Origin: Candidatus Poribacteria bacterium
Lineage (GTDB): Bacteria > Poribacteria > WGA-4E > WGA-3G
Length of the DNA: 64,000 bases
Assembly (NCBI GenBank): GCA_021295715.1
Contig: JAGWBV010000040.1
Location: 1 to 64,000, forward strand
Direction of reading: 5' to 3'
Position 1 is the first letter of the stretch; each line of letters opens with the position of its first letter. A program made the translations under genes and the position numbers. The notes under the pieces were generated by a model. That model worked only from the letters and a program-made list of their open reading frames with translations. It did not search any database and was not told the DNA's origin. Shown here piece by piece: positions 8,991 through 21,618 of the stretch.

Positions 8991-10105
8991 ATGAAGACAG
9001 AAAAATACGAGTTTTATCACCAGTCGAATATTATGCAGATTGGCAATCTGATAGACGATCTGCATAGCGTGCATGTCCATCTCTTATTGTTGCAGAGACG
9101 CTATTATCGGATTTATGGTAAGTATGCCTCCCTCTCTCGTATTCTGAAACACATAACGAAGTTGAAACGAACAAGCAAACCGCATTGGAATCACCTCCCG
9201 TCGCAAATGATCCAAGACGTTGCGATCCGCATTGATCTGGGTTACCAAGCTTTTTTTGACAACATAGAAGATAGGAAGTTAGGCAAAACGAACCGCAAAG
9301 TCGGCAAACCGAAAATCAAGCCGAATCATAAGTATAAGTCAATCACCTTCACACAAGCAGGTTTCAAAATAGAAGGCAATCGATTGAGAATCAATTGTCT
9401 GAAAAAGTCCTTCACGTTTTGGAAACACCGTGAGTGGACTGGAAACCCGATAAAGAAAATAACACTCAAACGCGATAATGTAGGCGACTACTATTTGTAT
9501 CTTATCTGTGAGGATTGCGAACCTTCGGAGAAACTCCCATTGACCGGTAGTGAGGCAGGGGCAGACTTCGGAAGTAAAACATTCCTGACACTTTCAGACG
9601 GCATAAAGATAGCGTCGCCAGAGTTCTATAAGCAAAGTCTCAACGCAATCCGTTCGGCAAACAAGGCACTCTCTCGTAAGCAATATCTTTCGAGTGGCTG
9701 GTTTGGTGCGAAACGTCATCTCGCCCGTGTTCATAAGGATATAGCCAATCGTAGACGGGATTGGTTCTTCAAGTTGGCACTCCGACTTGTGCGTAAATAC
9801 GATAAGATTGCCATAGAAACGCTGAACCTCGAGGGTATGAAACGCCTCTGGGGACGCAAAATCTCTGACCTTGCCTTCGGTGAATTCGTCTTGATACTTC
9901 GGTGGACGTGTGCCAAATACGGCAAACATTGTTGAAATCAGGTCGCTGGACCCCTACGACAAAGCCCTGTTCGGAGTGTGGACACCTCAACGAAAATCTA
10001 ATGCTTTCAGATAGACAGTGGACATGTCCTGAATGTGGTTCATACCACGACAGAGACGTAAACGCTGCGATAAACATTTTGCAGGCTGGGGTACCCTGGA
10101 CCTAA
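8991..10105 (+). pseudogene. tnpB: TnpB-family RNA-guided nuclease, frameshifted
   Basis: IS200/IS605-group TnpB read in two frames. The first, 8991-9935, gives the N-terminal helical region (LQRRYYRIYGKY), the RuvC I Asp in AGADFGSKTFL and the RuvC II Glu in AIETLNLEGM. The second, entered near 9920, gives LLKSGRWTPTTKPC, the zinc ribbon CSECG...CPECG and the RuvC III Asp in HDRDVNAAINI. The catalytic triad is thus present, and only one indel around 9915-9930 separates the frames, where CAKYGK should run into the LLKSGRW segment. Total about 370 residues is normal for the family. No TnpA is present. A recent inactivation or an assembly error are both possible. Confidence 0.85.
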
Positions 10106-10297: not shown

Positions 10298-13200
10298 TTA
10301 GAAATAAGATCTGCCGAGTGAGCTTCCAGAACCGAATGCGTTGTAAGGCACGCCAGCCGGTATGGTTCGGAGTCCCCACGTTTCAGTCGTGGCATCGTAA
10401 CCGATACCCATCGAAACGGCAGGCTCCTGAATCAGATTCACCTGGAACGTGAAGTCCTGACGGACGCTGTTGTAGGGGGAGTCTTCGCGCTTAATTCCGA
10501 CACGGTTCCAAGAGATGCGCAGGTTCCAATCGTGGAGATTGCGTGTCATACTAATGCGTTGAGAATAGAATTGTCCTTCAATGGGATAATAGATAAGGCT
10601 CATGTCAAATGAGAGGTCTTGGCTAACACGGTAGCGTCCAGTAGCAGTAATAGATCGAGATGCCCGTCGGGACGTATGCCGTTTGCTGAAAGAGTTTCCG
10701 ATACTGACGTTCCAAGACGGTCGGGTGTAGCGGATATTCGTCCGGAACCCTACCATCTTAAACTGTTTCCCATCGTCGGGATGTGGGTTGGGGTCGTGTG
10801 TGAATCGGACGGTCATATTTAGGTTTCGACTCGGAAGCGGGACGAATGTGAAATCACTCTCAATGGGTTCATATTTCCGCCTATACAACGGCTCGAAGTC
10901 AGTGAAATCGGCGGTGAGTCGGGTATCAAAATAAAAGATACGGTGTGCCGACTGGCTCCGTCGGGTCTTGATTTCAAAGTTTGTATTGAAGTTATAGGTG
11001 AGCCTCTTCCGTTCATAGAAGTAGGTGCTCGGACCGAAAGGATAGAGGCTATCATCTTCGTCAACAGCGGGCTGATAATTGAATCGGAGTGAGGATTGGA
11101 TTTCGTGTCTCAACTTTCGGAGTCCAGGGATATAACCGACGTTAAAAACCCGGAAAAGTGTGTTTGTAGCGGATCCATTGAAGCTGTAAACGCCTTTTAC
11201 GATGTTCCTATTTTTGTCTTGGTCTTGGTCGTGCCATATCATATTTGTGTTGAGATCAAGGCTCATTTGGAGTTCCCGCAAGGGTGTAATCAGGAGCGTT
11301 GACTGCTTACGAACATCGAATCCGAGGTCCAGCGTCTGTAGGTATACATCTCTCTCCTCTACTTTACCCTTATAGACTTCTCTAAAGAAATTTCCCAATT
11401 CAAGATCCAAGTCGAAACTTGTGCTTTCAAGGGTTGGAACGGTGAAAAGTGAGAGAAAAGGTTGCTCAGTTTTGAAATTTTCAGCAACCTCTTCCAGACG
11501 ATCGTTGAGGCTGCCAAGCAGCGGGAGTGCACTTACTCGCATCCGTGAGAAATTTAAGGTGAATTGTGGCAGTTTCTGAAGCGAGGTAGTGCCTTCATCC
11601 GTGAAATCGTGAACGTGTCGGACTTCGAGCCTACCGGTAATATCTCCGATTGTTTCCCGCGAAAACGTGAGATTGTCATTCTCGTCGCGATCGGAGTCAG
11701 AGACGGTAGACAAACCGGATCCATAGGTGAGTATTGCGAAAGTGTTCAGCCTGGATTCTCCGGGGAGTTGCAGTTCTTCCTTGAAATTACGGGCTTGCAA
11801 CTCTGTTCTACCGGTAAAATTGATGGGGCGTCTACCTTCTTCACGGCTATCCCACGGCGTATAGAAAGATTGTGTATGTCCCCATCGCATAATCCACCGT
11901 CTACCGATACGTGTTGCGTTCTGCCGCTCGTAGGAATATCGGTCCGCACCGTAGAAGTAAATATCGCCGCGATAGGTTCTCTTTTTATCGACTTTGATGA
12001 GTCGAATGGACTTTTTGGTTTGAATGGGACGACTGCTAAATTCACCGGCATATAGCCTTTGTGCATCTGAGGCGACGGCACTCGGATCCTCCCAACGTCC
12101 TCGAAAACCGTTTTTCCGATACACTTTCAGTTCATCCTCTTCTTCCGCATCTTCTTCAGTGTTGGGGTCATCGGAAACTGCGTCGTCATCGGACGGCTCG
12201 GAAGTCGTCTCGCCTTCCACTTCACCCTCTGACGCGTCCTGTTCTACGCTCTGATTTTCATCAGTATCGTCCACCTCGTCCTGTTCTACGATTTGATTTT
12301 CATCAGTATCAGGAGGAGAGTCGTCAGGCTTCAGGCTTTGGCTTTCAGTTCCGTTTTCTGTGTCTGTCCTGTTTTCTATTCTTGTTCCAGCGGTGTCAGA
12401 TTCGTCGCTGACTGCTTCTTCACTCGCGTCTTCCGATTCACCAGCTTCCTCTATATCTTCCGATTCACCATCTCCCGCGGGTTCTTCAGGTTTAGGGTTC
12501 ATCACCTCTTCGTAGAAAGTATCCCATTCCGCTTCAAACTGTTCAGCAAGTTCCTCGAAAGTCGGGGTCTCCTCTTTTTCAATCAATTGGAAAATGTAAA
12601 GACCTTCGGGCATGGTGATAGGTCTCCGTTCAATAACATCTCCGGGATTCTCTAATCGCCTAACCGCGGAACGCCACGAGGATTCCATCTCATTTAAGAG
12701 CAAGCCGTTACCTTCATTCGGTTCGGATAAGGTCGGTTCGGCGATGTCTGCGAATTGCTCAGGGACGTGTATAAGTTGTTCAAATGGCTCACCTTCGTGG
12801 GCACGTTTGAGCATGTCATCTGCCAATTCGCGCAGGACGAATTCCGTGTCTTCACTGGCGGTAATAGCGATGTCAATGCGGCGGAGTTTAATTTCGCGTT
12901 CGCCATAGACATCAAGCACCCGTTCTGCTTTCAGAATATGGAAGGCAGATTCAGTTTGGACAATGGGACTAATTTCGCCCTCTTGTAGTGCGAACAGGGC
13001 TTCCTCTAAAACCGGATCGAGTTTCGGTTTGCCCTCCTCATCAACTTCACCGGGGACGAGAAATCCCATGTCGCCGCCATCGTAACGGGTGTCAAAATGG
13101 TCAGAATTGCTTTGTGCGATCTGTGCGAAATCCGCACCTTCTTCTTGGAGCTGCCCGAGGACATCTTCTGCCTTATCTTTCGCACGTTGGACATCATCTT

Positions 13201-14314
13201 CGGTGATTTTATATTCAATGAAAATCTGGCGTAGCCAATAGCGGTCGTATTCACCATCAAGCCTGTCCTGCAATTCATCCGCTTTATCTTTTAATTTCGT
13301 GCGTTGGTTCGGTGTTACATCGGGCGGAATCGGGATATAGATTTCTTGAAACTGGGTATCATTGAATCGGTATTTACCTTCAAACCCGAATCCCTGCCCT
13401 CGCTTTGAACTTCTGTCATAGAGCAGTGCCCCATCGTAACGGCGGTTGCGTGCTACAGGTAAGATGATACTGATGTTGGGACCTTGATAACTATCCGTCC
13501 CAATTTTAACGATAATCTTCGCAATCTTACCTTTCCGTATGTCCCGCCGAATGACAGGAAAATAGAAGAGCGGAAACCCACCGATACGTAAGACGATATT
13601 TTTGGCGATCATCTCCTGATTCATTCGGACAATGACTTCGGACACACTAAAATAGTAGTGTGGATATTTCAGTGAGCAGGTCGTCAGGGATGCACCGCGA
13701 ATATAGGAGCGATCTTCCTGTATTTTAAAGATTTCACTGCCGCCGAAGTACCATGGGTCGCTGAAGGTAAACCCGTTCCGAGCAATCCCTTTTTTGGTTT
13801 CGAGGTTGAACACGAGTTCATCGGAGTAAGTCTCTTCGTCCCCCATTATGAGGTGGACGTTCCCGGAGGCGCGCATGAGGTTTTCGTCGAAATCTGCCCA
13901 GATATGGTCTGCCCGGAGAATGACATCCTCGAATTTGATAAGTGCATTCCCATGAATTTGGACGAAATTATCAACCATAGCCATATCGTCGCCATCGCCG
14001 ATGACCATGCCCTCTTCAGGGACATCAGTTTCCGGGTTCAATCGCTCCGAGGCGGCATCCTCCTCCTGCGTCTGATCCGTAGTAGATTCAGGGGCCTCCG
14101 TTTCAGACGCAGGGGGTTCAACGGGTTGTGCCTCTTGCGCAAGAATGGACTGGAGGGGGTAAAGGAGACAGGCAATGACGAGTAAGGTCAGTGCTATACG
14201 CTCAATTCTGGGTATTGAGATGCGGAAGGCGTGATGTTGGTTTTTAATTTTACCTTGCGGTTCGGTGAGTTGGGTTTCAGGTTTGAAGTGCCTTTTCGTT
14301 GAACCGTCCTCCAT
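10298..14314 (-). CDS. lptD: LptD-like outer membrane protein with internal parvulin domain
   Basis: Predicted LPS-transport beta-barrel. In numbering from an upstream GTG at 14407: signal anchor about 68-90 (IALTLLVIACLLYPL), acidic Pro/Glu linker, OstA-like periplasmic domain about 145-285 (VQIHGNALIKFEDVILRADH), first barrel strands about 290-350 (GGFPLFYFPV), a PpiC/parvulin domain about 390-500 (RQIFIEYKI, FAQIAQSNSDH, YDGGDMGFL, LQEGEISPIV, AFHILKAERV), a second parvulin-like or degenerate region to about 640, a very acidic Ser/Glu/Asp linker to about 750, then aromatic-rich alternating strands of the main barrel to a C-terminal Phe. Typical LptD is 750-1000 residues, so the extra length is the insert and linker. 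Start uncertain: the ATG at 14314 lies in a dispersed repeat and has no strong SD. It lies directly after surA. Confidence 0.8.
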   Translation of the reverse strand: MEDGSTKRHFKPETQLTEPQGKIKNQHHAFRISIPRIERIALTLLVIACLLYPLQSILAQEAQPVEPPASETEAPESTTDQTQEEDAASERLNPETDVPEEGMVIGDGDDMAMVDNFVQIHGNALIKFEDVILRADHIWADFDENLMRASGNVHLIMGDEETYSDELVFNLETKKGIARNGFTFSDPWYFGGSEIFKIQEDRSYIRGASLTTCSLKYPHYYFSVSEVIVRMNQEMIAKNIVLRIGGFPLFYFPVIRRDIRKGKIAKIIVKIGTDSYQGPNISIILPVARNRRYDGALLYDRSSKRGQGFGFEGKYRFNDTQFQEIYIPIPPDVTPNQRTKLKDKADELQDRLDGEYDRYWLRQIFIEYKITEDDVQRAKDKAEDVLGQLQEEGADFAQIAQSNSDHFDTRYDGGDMGFLVPGEVDEEGKPKLDPVLEEALFALQEGEISPIVQTESAFHILKAERVLDVYGEREIKLRRIDIAITASEDTEFVLRELADDMLKRAHEGEPFEQLIHVPEQFADIAEPTLSEPNEGNGLLLNEMESSWRSAVRRLENPGDVIERRPITMPEGLYIFQLIEKEETPTFEELAEQFEAEWDTFYEEVMNPKPEEPAGDGESEDIEEAGESEDASEEAVSDESDTAGTRIENRTDTENGTESQSLKPDDSPPDTDENQIVEQDEVDDTDENQSVEQDASEGEVEGETTSEPSDDDAVSDDPNTEEDAEEEDELKVYRKNGFRGRWEDPSAVASDAQRLYAGEFSSRPIQTKKSIRLIKVDKKRTYRGDIYFYGADRYSYERQNATRIGRRWIMRWGHTQSFYTPWDSREEGRRPINFTGRTELQARNFKEELQLPGESRLNTFAILTYGSGLSTVSDSDRDENDNLTFSRETIGDITGRLEVRHVHDFTDEGTTSLQKLPQFTLNFSRMRVSALPLLGSLNDRLEEVAENFKTEQPFLSLFTVPTLESTSFDLDLELGNFFREVYKGKVEERDVYLQTLDLGFDVRKQSTLLITPLRELQMSLDLNTNMIWHDQDQDKNRNIVKGVYSFNGSATNTLFRVFNVGYIPGLRKLRHEIQSSLRFNYQPAVDEDDSLYPFGPSTYFYERKRLTYNFNTNFEIKTRRSQSAHRIFYFDTRLTADFTDFEPLYRRKYEPIESDFTFVPLPSRNLNMTVRFTHDPNPHPDDGKQFKMVGFRTNIRYTRPSWNVSIGNSFSKRHTSRRASRSITATGRYRVSQDLSFDMSLIYYPIEGQFYSQRISMTRNLHDWNLRISWNRVGIKREDSPYNSVRQDFTFQVNLIQEPAVSMGIGYDATTETWGLRTIPAGVPYNAFGSGSSLGRSYF

Positions 14315-14445
14315 TCCATTACAGACTACAAGTTTGGTATTATCTTTAATTTTACCACTGAACGGCGTAGCCTGCAACAACGGCGCAGGCGGATTTAAGG
14401 AATACACTTAAAACCGGATGTTCAGTGTTTCTCCGCAAGGTATAA

Positions 14446-15744
14446 TTAAAAATCAATTTTAATGTAAGCGTTTTCAAGGAGTTTGTTGGTGTATGCGTCC
14501 CATTCCTCTTGGAACCGCTGCTGGCGGAGTATTGAAGTAATCTGTTGTTTCTCTGTTTCGCTGAGGTTTGGACTATTCCGTTCATCGACTTTAAATATGT
14601 GAAGACCGGATTCAGTTTCGTGCGGTTGGCTGTGAGTGCCGGATTCAAGGGCTTCAATGATTGCACGAGTTTTAGGATTCAGTTCGGTCAAGGAGCGGAC
14701 CCCGAGATCACCGCCGTTCTCTCGCGTCTCAGTATCGTCGGAATGTGCCGATGCGAGTGCATTAAAATCTTCGCCGTTCTCCAGTTTTTTGAAAATTTCA
14801 ACAATACGCTCGCGTGCTTCTTGTATAGCTTTTTCACTCGGTGTAAGGGGAACGATGAGATACCGAAATGCGATCATCTTATCGGTTTTCATTTCGACAG
14901 TGAAAACGTAGAGTCCCTCGTTTCCTTCAACCGGCTCGCTAAATTTGCCAGCCTCCAAGTTTGTGAGCACATCTTGGAATACCTGTGGGAACCTTTTGAG
15001 CTCCTCTGTAGTAGCCTCTATGAGAATTCCTGCCTGTGAACTTGGATTTTCCTTAGAGGTATATCGTTGTGCCTCCTCCTCAAACTTCGCACCACCCGTT
15101 GTGATTTCATCGATCGATTTTTTTATGGTTTCAAGTGCGGTGTCCCGATCGGCTTGATTCGGTTTAAAGGCAACAAAAATGTGCCGCAAATGCACCTTAT
15201 CTGTTTTAGTGGGGAGTTGGTCCCGATTTTCCTCAAAAAATTGTTGGATCTCGCTCTCGCGTACTTGCAATCGAGGGACAATTCTTCCCATCACAAGCTT
15301 CTCTGCTTTGAGATTTCGCTCCGACTGTTCTCGAAACGCTACGAGTGTCATACCCTCTCTGTTTAATTGATTTTTAAATTCTTCGTCTGTCTCAATTTTA
15401 TATCGCTTCTTAAAGTCTTGAATGTACTGCTCAATTTCCACATCGCTGACGGTAACCTTCAGCGTTAATGCGGCTTCCAAAAGGAGCATTTGCCTGATAA
15501 GTCGGTCAAGTAATTCCGATCGTTGTCGTTCAGCCTCATTGAGTGCTTCCCGTTCGCTGAAGCGATAAACCTGTTGGAGTTCCATAGCACGCTGATTCAC
15601 CAAGACATCGAGTTCCCGCTTAGTCACAACATCGTCATTAACGTAAGCGACGATTTTGTCAAAGGTGCGGGCGACACCACTCCCTACACCACTGCTAATG
15701 AGTAGTAAGATGAACATGAGATACGCAGATACTTTATAAACCAT
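14446..15744 (-). CDS. surA: SurA-like periplasmic peptidyl-prolyl isomerase
   Basis: Outer-membrane-protein chaperone/PPIase of 432 residues. A signal peptide (MVYKVSAYLMFILLLISSGV) precedes the N-terminal SurA helical domain beginning DKIVAYVNDDVVTKRELDVL, then a first parvulin domain (VHLRHIFVAF, with SSQAGIL in place of GGDLG) and a second with ENGGDLGVRSL and GLHIFKVDE. Two parvulin domains after the chaperone domain is the E. coli SurA plan. The ATG at 15744 is chosen because the longer frame runs into a GGAAGG-rich repeat. LptD is a classic SurA client, and here lptD follows about 130 bases downstream, which supports the assignment. Confidence 0.88.
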   Translation of the reverse strand: MVYKVSAYLMFILLLISSGVGSGVARTFDKIVAYVNDDVVTKRELDVLVNQRAMELQQVYRFSEREALNEAERQRSELLDRLIRQMLLLEAALTLKVTVSDVEIEQYIQDFKKRYKIETDEEFKNQLNREGMTLVAFREQSERNLKAEKLVMGRIVPRLQVRESEIQQFFEENRDQLPTKTDKVHLRHIFVAFKPNQADRDTALETIKKSIDEITTGGAKFEEEAQRYTSKENPSSQAGILIEATTEELKRFPQVFQDVLTNLEAGKFSEPVEGNEGLYVFTVEMKTDKMIAFRYLIVPLTPSEKAIQEARERIVEIFKKLENGEDFNALASAHSDDTETRENGGDLGVRSLTELNPKTRAIIEALESGTHSQPHETESGLHIFKVDERNSPNLSETEKQQITSILRQQRFQEEWDAYTNKLLENAYIKIDF

Positions 15745-15851
15745 TATGGATGCCTCTATTATCGGTCTTCGATTGGAGGAGTGAATGTGGCTGGAAGGTT
15801 GGAAGGTTGGGGGCACCCATCCTTCCATTCTTCCTATCTTCCAGCTGAGCG

Positions 15852-16877
15852 TTATTCTTCAGGTTCCGCCTCTACGGGAGGTGTTTCGGATTGCGCTTCC
15901 TCCGATACCTCTTCGGCTTCTTCAGATTCCGCCTCTGGGATGCGATCTATATACGTTTTGACCTCGGCGCGTTCTCGAAGTTCGATGACCCAGTTGTCCA
16001 TGAGTTCCTGTCGTTTCTCGCGTTCCGCTTTCCGGATAACACTCTTACGAACGTCTTCCTCCTCAAACGGTTTTTGGTATTCATCGCGAGCTTCATCTTT
16101 TCGGAATATCATGTAGTATTTCTGTCCCTGAACGTCGACTTCAATAACACCATCGTGCATCTGACCGATCTCCGCAGCAAACGCCGCATCTAAGAAAGGT
16201 TCAGTTCCCGCAGGAAAGGAACTCCGACTAATATAGTCCGTGTCACCCGGAGATGTTGGATTCGCACCGGGACCGACGAGTTCTCCGCGGTCGGAGAGTT
16301 CCTGAGCGACTTCAAGGATGTCTTTGCCTTCCTTGATTTGCGCGTATACTTCATCACTCCGCTCTTTATTCAGGAGCGTGATGCACGAGAGCCTGACCTG
16401 TTCAGGACGAACGTACTCGGCTTTGTTCGCTTCGTAGTGCTGAGCGTAGTCGTCTTCGGTCAAAGTGAGCTTGCCGTCTACCTCTTGTGCGGTAATTTTC
16501 TTGACCATCAACTCGTGAAGATAATCCTGAACCTTCTTGAGAATTTCTGGGTCTTCATTGAGTTTTTCGTCTCGAGCGAGATTGAGAATGAGTCGACTCT
16601 CCGCCATGAGGAGCATATAAGTTTCCAGCCCCTCTTTATCCTGATATTGACGCTGCTTGTATTCGGGGAGTTCACTAATCTCCTGCATCATCTCTTCGAG
16701 GGTGATGCGTTGTTTACCGTTCCATTCAAATTCAGCGATGACCGTTCCATCCGCACCGATCGCCTTGTCGCCGCAGCTATAGAAGACAGGATGCGTGACA
16801 AGGATCCCGATGAGAAGTAAGGGGGTAATTCGCGACGAAAAAATTCTGCCCATGGAGCGGGCAACTATTCTGAGCAT
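15852..16877 (-). CDS. PpiC-type peptidyl-prolyl isomerase, probable lipoprotein
   Basis: Periplasmic or membrane-tethered parvulin of 341 residues. The N-terminus has a hydrophobic segment ending in FYSCGD, a possible lipobox Cys. A SurA/PrsA-like helical region follows (YKQRQYQDKEGLETYMLLMA), then a parvulin-like domain (RPEQVRLSCITL to YYMIFRKDEA) and an acidic, Glu/Pro-rich tail. AAGGAG lies 8 bases before the ATG at 16877, so upstream codons are rejected. It shares layout and wording with the next gene upstream (16975-17955), a tandem paralogue. The normal GGDLG glycines are weak here (GPGANPTSPGDTDY), so isomerase activity is uncertain and a chaperone role is possible. Confidence 0.78.
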   Translation of the reverse strand: MLRIVARSMGRIFSSRITPLLLIGILVTHPVFYSCGDKAIGADGTVIAEFEWNGKQRITLEEMMQEISELPEYKQRQYQDKEGLETYMLLMAESRLILNLARDEKLNEDPEILKKVQDYLHELMVKKITAQEVDGKLTLTEDDYAQHYEANKAEYVRPEQVRLSCITLLNKERSDEVYAQIKEGKDILEVAQELSDRGELVGPGANPTSPGDTDYISRSSFPAGTEPFLDAAFAAEIGQMHDGVIEVDVQGQKYYMIFRKDEARDEYQKPFEEEDVRKSVIRKAEREKRQELMDNWVIELRERAEVKTYIDRIPEAESEEAEEVSEEAQSETPPVEAEPEE

Positions 16878-16974
16878 TTCTCTAACTCCTTTTTTCATAG
16901 CCGTCGGCGATTGGCTATCAGCCATCAGTAAGAAACAAACGCTTTTCTGATTGCTGATGGTTGACGGCTGACGG

Positions 16975-17955
16975 CTATTCTTCTGACGACTCATCTGATT
17001 CCTCGGTTTCCGCTTCTTCTACTTTCGGCGGTTCCGGAATATTTTCAGGATAGGTTTTTAACTTGCCTTTTTCAGTAATTTCGGAGACCCATTCATTGAT
17101 ACGCGCGCGTTTCTTTTCGCGCTCAACCGTTCTACGGACATCGTCCTTGACCTCGTCGAATTCCTGCTGGCGGTCTGGATGATGCTCTTCTTTACGGAAG
17201 ATGAGATAGAAGGTATCTTCATTGACATCTACCTCAAAAAGGGTATCCGTCGTTTCGCCGATTTCTTGCGCAAAAACAGCGTCGATGAACTCCGCCCAAC
17301 GCGGTGATGCGGATTTGGTAAACATGTTGGTGTTCCCTGGGTCGTCTTGATTGGTGCCAGGTCCGTTGGCGAGTTTACCGGCTTCGGTGAGTTCCTTTGC
17401 CATCTCAGCGATGTCTTTGCCTGCTTTGATAGCATCAAGGGTCTCGTTGCCAAGATCTTCATCGTCAACCGTAATACAGGTTGCGCGAACCTTGGCTTCC
17501 TCAATGTACTCACTCAAATTCGCTTGATAATGTGCCATGAGATCTTCATCGGTAATGACGATCTTAGCATCCACTTCAGCTTCGGTCAATTTTTCAACCA
17601 TCAACTGATGCGTATAGTCTTCAAGCTTTTTGACGTGTTCGGCAAGCGAATCAAATCCGTCGTCGGCAGCGCGAAGAATCTGGAGTCGTTCATCTATCAA
17701 TTCCTCAAGATACTCGGCTTTGTCTTCCCGAGTATCATAGTTCTGTTGACGATAAACGGGCAATTCTGCGATGGCAGCGTTCAAATCAGCCAATGAGATT
17801 TGATAAGGTTTGCCATTCCATTTGTACTCTGCCAAAATTACCTTGCTTTCGTCCATAGCAGACATGGGTTGTTCATGACTATCGGATTGAACAAATCTCC
17901 ATGTCAGTAGACAGGTCAGGGTAACAATTACAAAGATAGCAATCGTTTTTTTCAT
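16975..17955 (-). CDS. PpiC-type peptidyl-prolyl isomerase, membrane-anchored paralogue
   Basis: 326-residue paralogue of the downstream PpiC protein. An N-terminal hydrophobic stretch (MKKTIAIFVIVTLTCLLTW) is a signal anchor or signal peptide. The motif YKWNGKPYQISLADLNAAI parallels FEWNGKQRITLEEMMQEI in the neighbour. A parvulin-like domain (KVRATCITVD to TFYLIFRKEE) and an acidic tail follow. The ATG at 17955 is preferred; a CCGCAAGGAA element that supplies an SD lies just before it. About 100 bases of GTCAGC-type repeats separate the two paralogues. Together with surA and the LptD insert, four consecutive genes here encode parvulin domains. Confidence 0.78.
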   Translation of the reverse strand: MKKTIAIFVIVTLTCLLTWRFVQSDSHEQPMSAMDESKVILAEYKWNGKPYQISLADLNAAIAELPVYRQQNYDTREDKAEYLEELIDERLQILRAADDGFDSLAEHVKKLEDYTHQLMVEKLTEAEVDAKIVITDEDLMAHYQANLSEYIEEAKVRATCITVDDEDLGNETLDAIKAGKDIAEMAKELTEAGKLANGPGTNQDDPGNTNMFTKSASPRWAEFIDAVFAQEIGETTDTLFEVDVNEDTFYLIFRKEEHHPDRQQEFDEVKDDVRRTVEREKKRARINEWVSEITEKGKLKTYPENIPEPPKVEEAETEESDESSEE

Positions 17956-18090
17956 ATTTTTAATGTTCCTTGCGGTATAGTGGCTATCAGCAGAATAGCC
18001 GTCAGCGATCAGCACTCAGGCACCAAAGGAACCTTTGTTAACGAAAATCCCTTAACTGATAGCCGATGGCTGATAATTGATAGCCGTTGG

Positions 18091-21000
18091 TTACATATCA
18101 ACAAACAACCTGAGCGTTTGTTGCAATTCGGTCAACATATTCACGCCAGTCACTCCCGGCATGCGAATCTGAAGTTGTGCCGGCGGTTGTAACTGGAGAT
18201 TTTTATTTTGGTGGACTATTTCAATGAATTTCTTCACATTAATTCGTGGTTTTCTTTCATCAAAGGCAACCTTCACCTGCTCCTTTCCAGCAACAATGGC
18301 TGTGATACCGAGATGTTGGCTGAGCTGTTTGATGTCAGCGACCTCCAGCAACATCTCAGCAGGTTCGGGTATTGCCCCGTATCGATCCTTCAACTCCTCG
18401 CGAAGTTCATTAAGTGCTCCTCGATCTTTCAAGCCAGCAATTTTCTTATAGATAGAGACCTTTTGACGGCTATCGGGGACGTAGTCATCCGGCAGATACG
18501 CTTCAATGGGCAGGTTGATACGCGTTTCCACGGTTTCCTCAACCTTTTCACCCCTAAGCGCCATCACCGCTTCCTCAAGAAGTCGACAATACAGTTCATA
18601 ACCGACAGTGACGATGTGTCCATGCTGTTCCGCACCGAGGATATTTCCAGCACCGCGAATCTCTAAATCTCGGAGGGCTATTTTGAAACCTGAACCGAGA
18701 TCTGTGAATTCTTCGATAACGCGAAGTCTCTTTTGTGCGCCCTCTGTGATTGCTTGATCCTGTGGATAGAAGAGATACCCGTAAGCTTGCGCCGCCGCAC
18801 GTCCGACGCGCCCTCGTAACTGATAGAGTTGTGCCAAACCGAGTGCATCCGCTCGATTAATGAGGATCGTGTTAACGTTGGGAATATCCAGTCCCGATTC
18901 AATAATCATTGTGCAGACCAGAACATCATGTTTGTGCCGCACGAACTCCAGCATAATGGTTTCCAATTCACGCTCAGGCATCTGTCCATGTGCGACTGCG
19001 ATGCGCGCATCCGGAACCAGTTGTTGAATTGCTAAAGCGATGCTTTGTATGTCTTGAACGCGATTGTGGACAAAAAACACTTGTCCATCGCGTCCTAATT
19101 CAGTCGTGATGGCTTCCCGAATCACATCACTGTCATAAGGCATGACGTATGTTTGGATCGGCAACCGATCGGCTGGTGGCGTGTTAATGACACTAAAGTC
19201 TCGGATACCCACAAGCGACATGTGGAGTGTACGTGGAATTGGTGTAGCGGTCAATGTAAGGACATCAACGGTTTCTTTGAATTGTTTTATTTTCTCTTTA
19301 TGCTTAACGCCGAAACGATGTTCTTCGTCAACTATTAGGAGTCCGAGGTTGTCGAACGCAACCGTTTTTGAAAGTAGGCTGTGTGTTCCAATCACAACAT
19401 CAACTGTGCCTTTCGCCAACCCCTCTTTAATCTGTTTTATCTCTTTCGGTGTGCGGAACCGATTTAACATTTCGATTTTGACGGGAAAGGGTTGGAAACG
19501 TTTTTCAAAAGTGTCGTAGTGTTGGAGGGCGAGAATGGTCGTAGGGACAAGAACTGCCACCTGTTTCTCGGACATGACGGCTTTGAAAGCGGCACGCAAC
19601 GCTATCTCGGTTTTTCCGTATCCGACATCTCCGCAGACGAGCCGATCCATCGGACGTTCATCTTCCATATCTGCTTTGACATCTTCAATCGCTTGGAGCT
19701 GATCGTTAGTCTCCTGATACGGGAAAAGTGCCTCAAACTCGGTTTGCCAAGGCACCTCAGTCGGGAAACTGAAGCCTTTGCGAGCTTGGCGAAGGGCGTA
19801 CAATTTGATGAGTTCGCCCGCCATCTGTTCAATGGATTTCTTCGCCTTGCCCTTTCGTCGATTCCAAGCAGCCCCCCCAAGACGATCGATACGGGGTTTA
19901 TAAGAATTGTCCTTGCTACCGACATATTTCTGAACGAGGTCAACTTGATAGGTCGGTACATAAAGGATGTCATCCGCGCTGTATCTGAGTATCAGAAAAT
20001 CTTGTGACTTTCCGTCAATTGCCAATCGTCGTATCCCATCATAAATAGCGATGCCGTGCGAGACGTGTACGACATAATCCCCAACCTTTAGATCGATGAG
20101 GCTGAGAATTGGCGTTCCGTCTGTAGAAGGGCGGTGTCGGATAGGACGGCGGTGCTGGCGACTGCCAAAGAGTTCATCTTCGGAAATAACAACAAAATTC
20201 AGTGATTCGTTGAGAAAACCTTCACTAATTATCCCGACACTGGTTTGAATATCTGGAGGCGATAATTCGCGTTCTGCTAATATTTCAGATACGCGCTTCG
20301 ACTGTTGCGGCGTTTCACAGAAAACATGAATTCGGATTCCTTCCTCTGTCCAAGTTTTCATCTGATTGATGACCGTTTGATAGTTACCAGAGGGGAGTGC
20401 CAACGGTTGCATCTCAAAATGCAAAGATGATGTCTGATTGTCCATTACCTCACGGGGTGGTGCTAAGGACGATGAAATAACCGACTGCTTCTCGAATTCA
20501 GCAGTGAGTGTTTCAAAGGAGGCGAGAAGTTTATCGGGTGGGACCATGAGGCTGGATTCCACTAACTTCTTCTCGTACAACTCCTGCATCTGCTCGTGCA
20601 TGTGTGAGGCTTCGCGCTGCTGCCATTGGGGTTCAATGAAACAGACAATTGTGTCATTGGGCAGGTAATCGGGCAGCAACTCGGTTTCTGGAACCAGCAT
20701 CGGCAAAAAGCCTTCTATGCCGTCATGCAGTGGACATTCTTGAAGCCGATATTGAGAAGATGCTGCTTCTGTTAAAGATTGTGTTATTTCCCGAACCGTG
20801 TTTATCAATTGTGGCGTTGCGTGTTCTTTGATGAGAGCATCCGCTTCGGTTTGCCAATGGTCGACCGATACATCAGCAGAAAGGACTTCCCGTAAGGGCG
20901 TAAGTGTAACCGATTCCATTGCTTCCGTTGAACGTTGCGATATCGGATCGAAAGCGCGGATCGTATCAATTTCATCGCCAAAAAACTCTACCCGAATAGG

Positions 21001-21618
21001 CATATCGGCAGTAAGTGGATAGACATCTAAGATGTCGCCTCTACGCGCAAATTCACCCTTGACTTCCACCAGTTCAACATTTTGGTAGCCCCCTTGAATC
21101 AGCATCGCTGCGACATCATCTGGATCTATCTCATCTCCGAGATTGAGGACGCGACATGCCTCGGCAAATCGATGGCGCGGCGGGAGTCTGTAAAGTATCG
21201 CTTGGCTTGATGTTACAATGATGCTTCGTTCTTTATGGAGCAAGTGTTCCAGACATCGCATTCGCTCCGCGACGGTTTCCTTGGGAGGCGCGATGCCATC
21301 AAAAATTTTTCGGTGCCAGCCTGGAAACAGATTTATCTTCGACTGCACATCGAGCATAGGTGTCGCTTCTGAAGCGGGATATGCCGTGTAGGCACAAATT
21401 TCTTCTAAGACTTGCTCGGCTTCACGTTGTGAAGGAAGGATAATCAGGAAGGATTTTTCAGGAAAATCGCAGCTGAGGGTTGCCAAAAGATACGCCGTTG
21501 ATGCGTTTGCTAATCCTCTGAGCCATGGAAGATTCTGGTTTCCATCTTTGAGACGTGCCACCAGCGTTCGATAATTTTCCGTTTTGCGTAGAAGCTCTAT
21601 CACTACTATTTCCTTCAT
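18091..21618 (-). CDS. mfd: Transcription-repair coupling factor Mfd
   Basis: 1175-residue SF2 translocase that releases stalled RNA polymerase and recruits UvrA. In order: UvrB-like N-terminal region (LPWLRGLANASTAYLLATL), RNA polymerase interaction domain (KVGDYVVHVSHGIAIYDGI), Walker A GDVGYGKTEIALRAAFKA, DEEHRFGV box, TATPIPRTLHMS, HNRVQDI, QLRGRVGRAAAQAYGY, and a C-terminal TRCF domain. Length is normal. A GTG at 21603 with AAGGA 7 bases upstream may be the true start rather than the ATG at 21618. mfd followed by parvulin genes is a neighbourhood also seen in deltaproteobacterial genomes, to my recollection. Confidence 0.96.
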   Translation of the reverse strand: MKEIVVIELLRKTENYRTLVARLKDGNQNLPWLRGLANASTAYLLATLSCDFPEKSFLIILPSQREAEQVLEEICAYTAYPASEATPMLDVQSKINLFPGWHRKIFDGIAPPKETVAERMRCLEHLLHKERSIIVTSSQAILYRLPPRHRFAEACRVLNLGDEIDPDDVAAMLIQGGYQNVELVEVKGEFARRGDILDVYPLTADMPIRVEFFGDEIDTIRAFDPISQRSTEAMESVTLTPLREVLSADVSVDHWQTEADALIKEHATPQLINTVREITQSLTEAASSQYRLQECPLHDGIEGFLPMLVPETELLPDYLPNDTIVCFIEPQWQQREASHMHEQMQELYEKKLVESSLMVPPDKLLASFETLTAEFEKQSVISSSLAPPREVMDNQTSSLHFEMQPLALPSGNYQTVINQMKTWTEEGIRIHVFCETPQQSKRVSEILAERELSPPDIQTSVGIISEGFLNESLNFVVISEDELFGSRQHRRPIRHRPSTDGTPILSLIDLKVGDYVVHVSHGIAIYDGIRRLAIDGKSQDFLILRYSADDILYVPTYQVDLVQKYVGSKDNSYKPRIDRLGGAAWNRRKGKAKKSIEQMAGELIKLYALRQARKGFSFPTEVPWQTEFEALFPYQETNDQLQAIEDVKADMEDERPMDRLVCGDVGYGKTEIALRAAFKAVMSEKQVAVLVPTTILALQHYDTFEKRFQPFPVKIEMLNRFRTPKEIKQIKEGLAKGTVDVVIGTHSLLSKTVAFDNLGLLIVDEEHRFGVKHKEKIKQFKETVDVLTLTATPIPRTLHMSLVGIRDFSVINTPPADRLPIQTYVMPYDSDVIREAITTELGRDGQVFFVHNRVQDIQSIALAIQQLVPDARIAVAHGQMPERELETIMLEFVRHKHDVLVCTMIIESGLDIPNVNTILINRADALGLAQLYQLRGRVGRAAAQAYGYLFYPQDQAITEGAQKRLRVIEEFTDLGSGFKIALRDLEIRGAGNILGAEQHGHIVTVGYELYCRLLEEAVMALRGEKVEETVETRINLPIEAYLPDDYVPDSRQKVSIYKKIAGLKDRGALNELREELKDRYGAIPEPAEMLLEVADIKQLSQHLGITAIVAGKEQVKVAFDERKPRINVKKFIEIVHQNKNLQLQPPAQLQIRMPGVTGVNMLTELQQTLRLFVDM

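Follow-up and report, generated by a model that had tools for sequence, protein, structure and literature searches.

LptD of Candidatus Poribacteria carries a split parvulin, with two further parvulins nested in it, between barrel strands 4 and 5

In Escherichia coli, LptD is reported to be strictly essential, a status shared with only one other outer-membrane protein, and its unusually slow assembly takes about 20 minutes (PMC13067283); it is depleted in cells without SurA (PMC11366764). Strands 4–6 of the E. coli LptD barrel are held in the lumen of BamA, which also holds the C-terminal strand (PMC6887485). What happens to the N-terminal strands in the final step on the β-barrel assembly machinery (BAM) is an open question. 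Here we describe lptD of a genome from the sponge-associated phylum Poribacteria, found in a window (the whole stretch of DNA analysed) of 64,000 nucleotides, positions 1 to 64,000 of contig JAGWBV010000040.1 in assembly GCA_021295715.1 (genome G000, contig C40 in our set). The gene (10298..14407, minus strand) encodes a protein of 1369 amino acids (aa) which, compared with E. coli LptD, has an additional insert of about 460 aa with three parvulin domains in the strand 4–5 turn of the barrel. Within this insert, a tandem pair of parvulins, P1 and P2, is nested in a split parvulin, P0, which is further interrupted by an acidic linker. We regard this architecture as practically certain.

PF04453, one of the two LptD models, matched nothing anywhere in the phylum, and we therefore used PF19838 (LptD_2) and profile alignment as tests of LptD identity. 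In the genome search, LptD_2 scored 23.2 bits on the window open reading frame (ORF) against a cut-off of 22.5. It also matched the barrels of four orthologues (best E 1.6e-9), and no other protein in the representative genomes exceeded the cut-off, leaving one LptD candidate. A profile running from the OstA domain to strand 4 matched an LptD of known structure, 7omm (E 5.8e-5), and gave a weak match to LptA. OstA_2 matched 12 of 17 orthologues, all weakly (best E 6e-4), and matches to LptD_N in the orthologues were likewise weak. With hhalign, an insert-free poribacterial profile could be aligned to nine LptDs from other phyla across 632 columns (E 9e-54, probability 100); with the insert retained, the alignment ended where the insert begins. 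The protein thus shares with LptD (OstA/Imp) an OstA domain and a large barrel, and aligns with it end to end once the insert is removed. LpxC and two LptF/G proteins were present in all ten representative genomes, and the LptE family exceeded its cut-off in five of them, though not in the window genome itself; as in E. coli, lptD lies beside surA. We conclude that this protein is the LptD of Candidatus Poribacteria, so that the identity proposed in an earlier sequence-only reading of the locus is borne out.

One trait of E. coli LptD is missing. The window protein has a single cysteine after the signal peptide, C244 in the OstA domain, which excludes maturation through internal disulfides as in E. 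coli LptD; we take the N- to C-terminal disulfides, absent here, as an E. coli-type trait and not as a family-defining one. When the window protein was searched alone, only parvulin families exceeded their cut-offs in Pfam, and in NCBIfam it matched peptidylprolyl isomerase (PPIase) models only. LPS-transport proteins (those for lipopolysaccharide) of uncultured phyla can therefore hide under the name 'peptidylprolyl isomerase'.

The ORF is intact. The sequence-only reading had placed the gene at 10298–14314, and 14314 is indeed an in-frame ATG, but the ORF reaches back to a GTG at 14407, and either codon may be the true start. A hydrophobic stretch, read by eye, marks a putative signal peptide at 14135..14209 (aa ~67–91, ...LLVIACLLYPLQSILA, followed by QE). 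The OstA/LptA-like N-terminal domain (13562..14005, aa 135–282), defined by the profile match to 7omm and LptA, leads into barrel strands 1–4 (13361..13561, aa 283–349), which are colinear with those of foreign LptDs and of E. coli LptD. The remaining barrel, from strand 5 to the C-terminus, occupies 10301..11974 (aa 812–1369) and is supported by the hhalign alignment and the LptD_2 match at 11042–11431. All of these parts, and those of the insert, lie on the minus strand.

The insert opens with P0a (13244..13360, aa 350–388), the first strand and helix of P0. P1 (12908..13243, aa 389–500) is a complete parvulin, matching PF00639 (Rotamase) over aa 395–495 (E 1.9e-20) and PF13616 (E 6e-17). 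P2 (12572..12907, aa 501–612) is more degenerate, and a joint P1+P2 profile extends over the two parvulins in PDB entries of SurA. The second helix of P0 (TPTFEELAEQF..., 12515..12571, aa 613–631) is followed by the acidic low-complexity linker (12140..12514, aa 632–756), about 43% of which is aspartate or glutamate, and then by P0b (11975..12139, aa 757–811), the C-terminal half of P0. The parvulin noted in the sequence-only reading was genuine, all of its quoted peptides falling in P1, but the insert holds three such domains and only this one had been seen; the linker, which had been placed between the parvulin and the barrel, actually lies inside P0. That reading had missed P2, the split P0 with its nested arrangement, and the spread across the phylum described below.

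At the level of sequence, several observations identify P0 as a single, interrupted parvulin. When its halves were spliced together in three orthologues, PF00639 matched with E values of 4e-13, 3.9e-20 (locus L069) and 4e-14; the C-terminal halves alone entered the profile at position 33–35 and scored 10–16 bits lower. In whole-genome Pfam searches, the LptD ORFs of three genomes (G004, G005 and G012) each had three Rotamase matches, the last of them starting from position 33–35. The first ~55 positions of a C-terminal profile unexpectedly matched PrsA, Pin1-type and SurA parvulins in their C-terminal halves. A parvulin hidden Markov model (HMM), built from these very domains and so partly circular as a test, tiled the window protein as positions 1–35, full, full, 34–50 and 47–100. 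In the window protein itself, spliced P0 is degenerate and falls just below the cut-off (20.6 bits, E 0.0009). The linker measures 11–12 aa in the deep families, 48–88 in families f2–f4 and 78–189 in f1, the family of the window protein, and the gap that separates the P0 halves is about 225 residues in the deep families, as against about 370 in the window protein. A single-parvulin reading of the insert was ruled out, as the stretch after P2 and the linker is a parvulin C-terminal half and the stretch before P1 is the missing N-terminal half.

An AlphaFold2 (AF2) model of aa 343–835 gave pLDDT (per-residue confidence) values of 82–88 for P0a, 85–94 for P1, mostly 80–90 for P2 (lower locally) and 66–82 for P0b, with about 28 for the acidic linker; the second helix of P0 is a helix in this model. 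Searched against the PDB, the modelled P1–P2 pair best matched a two-parvulin PPIase, 8HM3/8HM4 (E 1e-8), with SurA-like PPIases at the top; that PPIase, in contrast to the module, is a separate protein and not part of a barrel. With PrsA, PpiD and Pin1-type parvulins (PF00639) the insert shares the fold and motifs of its single domains, but P0 is discontinuous and the catalytic set is incomplete. With SurA it shares the tandem P1–P2 order and strong profile matches, and differs in that its parvulins are covalently part of an outer-membrane protein (OMP) client and are nested in a third, split parvulin. No SurA_N family matched the LptD ORF in Pfam, which was searched for the SurA N-terminal core domain. 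At most, the module would work like the parvulin part of SurA, and this LptD is not a SurA.

Aligned through the foreign LptDs, which have a tight turn at this position, the insertion maps to residues ~277–284 of E. coli LptD. There, W272, N274 and F276 belong to strand 4 and L289–Y291 to strand 5 (PMC6887485). Because the N-terminus is periplasmic and even-to-odd turns are periplasmic by parity, the strand 4–5 turn is periplasmic, and this topology would place the module on the periplasmic side, which agrees with the location that the sequence-only reading had singled out for checking. An extracellular position, with EIYIPIPP as strand 5, was dropped: this segment is the first strand of P0, and the foreign LptDs put strand 5 after P0b.

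That reading had also called for a search for the same domain order in related genomes, and 84 of the 85 genomes of the phylum, single-contig genomes included, gave matches. The full plan was found in all representatives inspected, sister class included, and every intact copy carries it. The sole genome without a match (G015) is a draft of 730 contigs, and a few fragmented drafts show partial matches only. Outside the phylum, two samples totalling ~380 genomes were searched, and none of the matches listed, among which the weakest LptDs were read only in part, combined LptD with the insert; the foreign LptD matches listed end near the insertion point, the best at ~153 bits as against ~1440–1770 for full-length poribacterial proteins. 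No parvulins were found in a set of unusually long foreign LptD ORFs. One candidate from another phylum (L118:2480–5662 in G340, 1061 aa) combines an N-domain like that of SurA with five consecutive parvulins and was rejected, not being an LptD. In the literature covered, which included few subscription papers, no paper joined LptD and Poribacteria, and no title or abstract opening described an LptD of this plan.

The sister class shows a further elaboration. In L067:1–3795 (G002) and L102:1–2334 (G001), a loop farther along the LptD barrel holds a fourth parvulin, which is circularly permuted, running from the second helix to the last strand and then through the first strand and helix. A single ORF of 1265 aa at L067 contains four Rotamase stretches together with LptD_2.

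In the window protein, the first catalytic histidine is replaced in P1, P2 and P0 by Q, R and E, respectively. P1 retains D, GG and the second histidine, and several motif residues (SDD, GG) are retained in the deep families. As the first histidine is gone from all three domains, we call them parvulin domains and not active PPIases. Against one relative, dN/dS (nonsynonymous to synonymous substitution rates) was 0.02–0.09 in every structured domain, figures that are rough since synonymous distances were near saturation, and P0a is among the best-conserved parts. All structured domains are under purifying selection.

What might such a module do? One isomerase domain of E. coli SurA, PPIase-1, is described as non-functional as an isomerase and yet binds clients (PMC13067283), which sets a precedent for a non-catalytic binding role. 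With the catalytic residues mostly lost in the window lineage, chaperoning or peptide holding is likelier than fast prolyl isomerisation. By analogy with E. coli LptD and SurA, we propose tentatively, as the likeliest role but at a little under an even chance, that the module serves as a cis chaperone for LptD's own assembly on BAM; the self-assisting assembly suggested in the sequence-only reading is thus plausible. With strands 4–6 in the BamA lumen during folding, the tethered module would be suspended directly below, on the periplasmic side, and, acting as a holdase, could keep the N-terminal strands and the OstA domain foldable until the barrel closes. It would thereby do in cis, for one slow client, what the parvulins of SurA do in trans. 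For the whole explanation, in which a poribacterial LptD, a SurA-like three-parvulin module in the strand 4–5 turn and a cis-chaperone role are taken together, we judge the chances evenly balanced.

An oddity of family f7, readable in four genera, lends the proposal some support. Its SurA consists of the N-domain and a C-terminal tail, having lost both parvulins, and its LptD keeps the module; SurA_N_3 matched and Rotamase did not at L071:4181–4861, L072:3346–4428, L073, L074:4865–5542 and L076:5970–6677. In a parvulin tree, P0 formed one clade (support 100/99) and most P1 and P2 sequences fell into their own groups, with most deeper forks weak; P1 of LptD grouped with P1 of sister-class SurA (95/83). 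These groupings are consistent with an origin of the module from the neighbouring surA. Conceivably, though we lean somewhat against it, the phylum has transferred some of the outer-membrane chaperone to the client itself, a SurA-derived module in the turn beneath the BamA lumen catalyses or guides closure of LptD's own barrel in cis, and one family went on to strip the parvulins from SurA.

Several points count against a cis-chaperone role. The full-length AF2 model of the window protein, built with 26 close relatives, was poor (mean pLDDT 39.6) and gives little hold on the placement of the module under the barrel. P2 and P0 of the window protein have lost GG and the second histidine and keep almost no catalytic residues. 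Most of the phylum retains a two-parvulin SurA, so a cis module would not be a plain replacement, and complementation by the core of SurA without its parvulins has been reported in E. coli (PMC11366764), so that general clients do not strictly require the SurA parvulins.

The loss of catalytic residues from folds that purifying selection has kept would also suit a module that serves the mature translocon structurally or for docking, its parvulin folds reused for protein-protein interactions that bind LptE, the LptA bridge, peptidoglycan or BAM and position LptD, with no chaperone role. The strong conservation of P0a points the same way, as does the proximity of the module to the OstA domain, the docking site of the LptA bridge on LptD. 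The order and similarity of P1–P2 are nevertheless those of a chaperone, SurA, with P1 grouping beside poribacterial SurA P1, and the SDD and GG residues survive in the deep families; we consider a docking part unlikely, if worth keeping in view. Family f7, where SurA is reduced to its N- and C-terminal parts and LptD keeps its parvulins as if the work had moved, could instead suggest a chaperone anchored in the outer membrane that acts in trans on other OMPs near BAM, making LptD partly a general assembly factor. LptD is normally present in few copies per cell, however, most of the phylum has further PPIases besides its two-parvulin SurA, and the f7 genomes still encode other parvulin proteins, all of which makes such a role improbable.

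Degeneration of P2 and P0 in the window lineage and the free expansion of the acidic linker are what a tolerated insertion, with no function beyond sparing the barrel, might display. Set against this are its retention across the phylum in a gene essential in most LPS makers and a dN/dS below 0.1 in every parvulin domain, and we think it very improbable. To an artefact of assembly or annotation, whether two fused genes or a chance match, we give virtually no credence. The sequence-only reading had named both as grounds for abandoning its interpretation, and both fail: the plan is a continuous ORF in many independent assemblies, single-contig genomes included, and the parvulins are structured, under purifying selection and matched in Pfam at 1.9e-20. 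We found nothing in support of an artefact; at one locus in one draft genome (L051:3316–7270), lptD lies in two frames (257 and 1113 aa), probably through a frameshift error of the kind that draft metagenome-assembled genomes can contain. If the cis-chaperone proposal is right, a natural fusion of LptD and chaperone at the strand 4–5 turn would offer a direct handle on the last BAM step and on the reason for the presence of parvulin domains in SurA.

The surroundings of lptD are conserved as well. Directly upstream, as the sequence-only reading had noted, lies surA (14446..15828), encoding an N-domain and two parvulins. Farther upstream are genes for two PpiD/PrsA-like parvulin proteins (15852..16994 and 16975..18015) and mfd (18091..21618), all on the minus strand. 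The order mfd-ppi-ppi-surA-lptD is kept in most loci, and surA adjoins lptD in nearly all loci where both genes were read. In family f7 (L071–L076), the two PpiD/PrsA-like genes between mfd and surA are one fused ORF of 648–739 aa. Just downstream of lptD, the window contains a gene for an IS605-type OrfB transposase (8991–9935; PF01385, E 7e-21).

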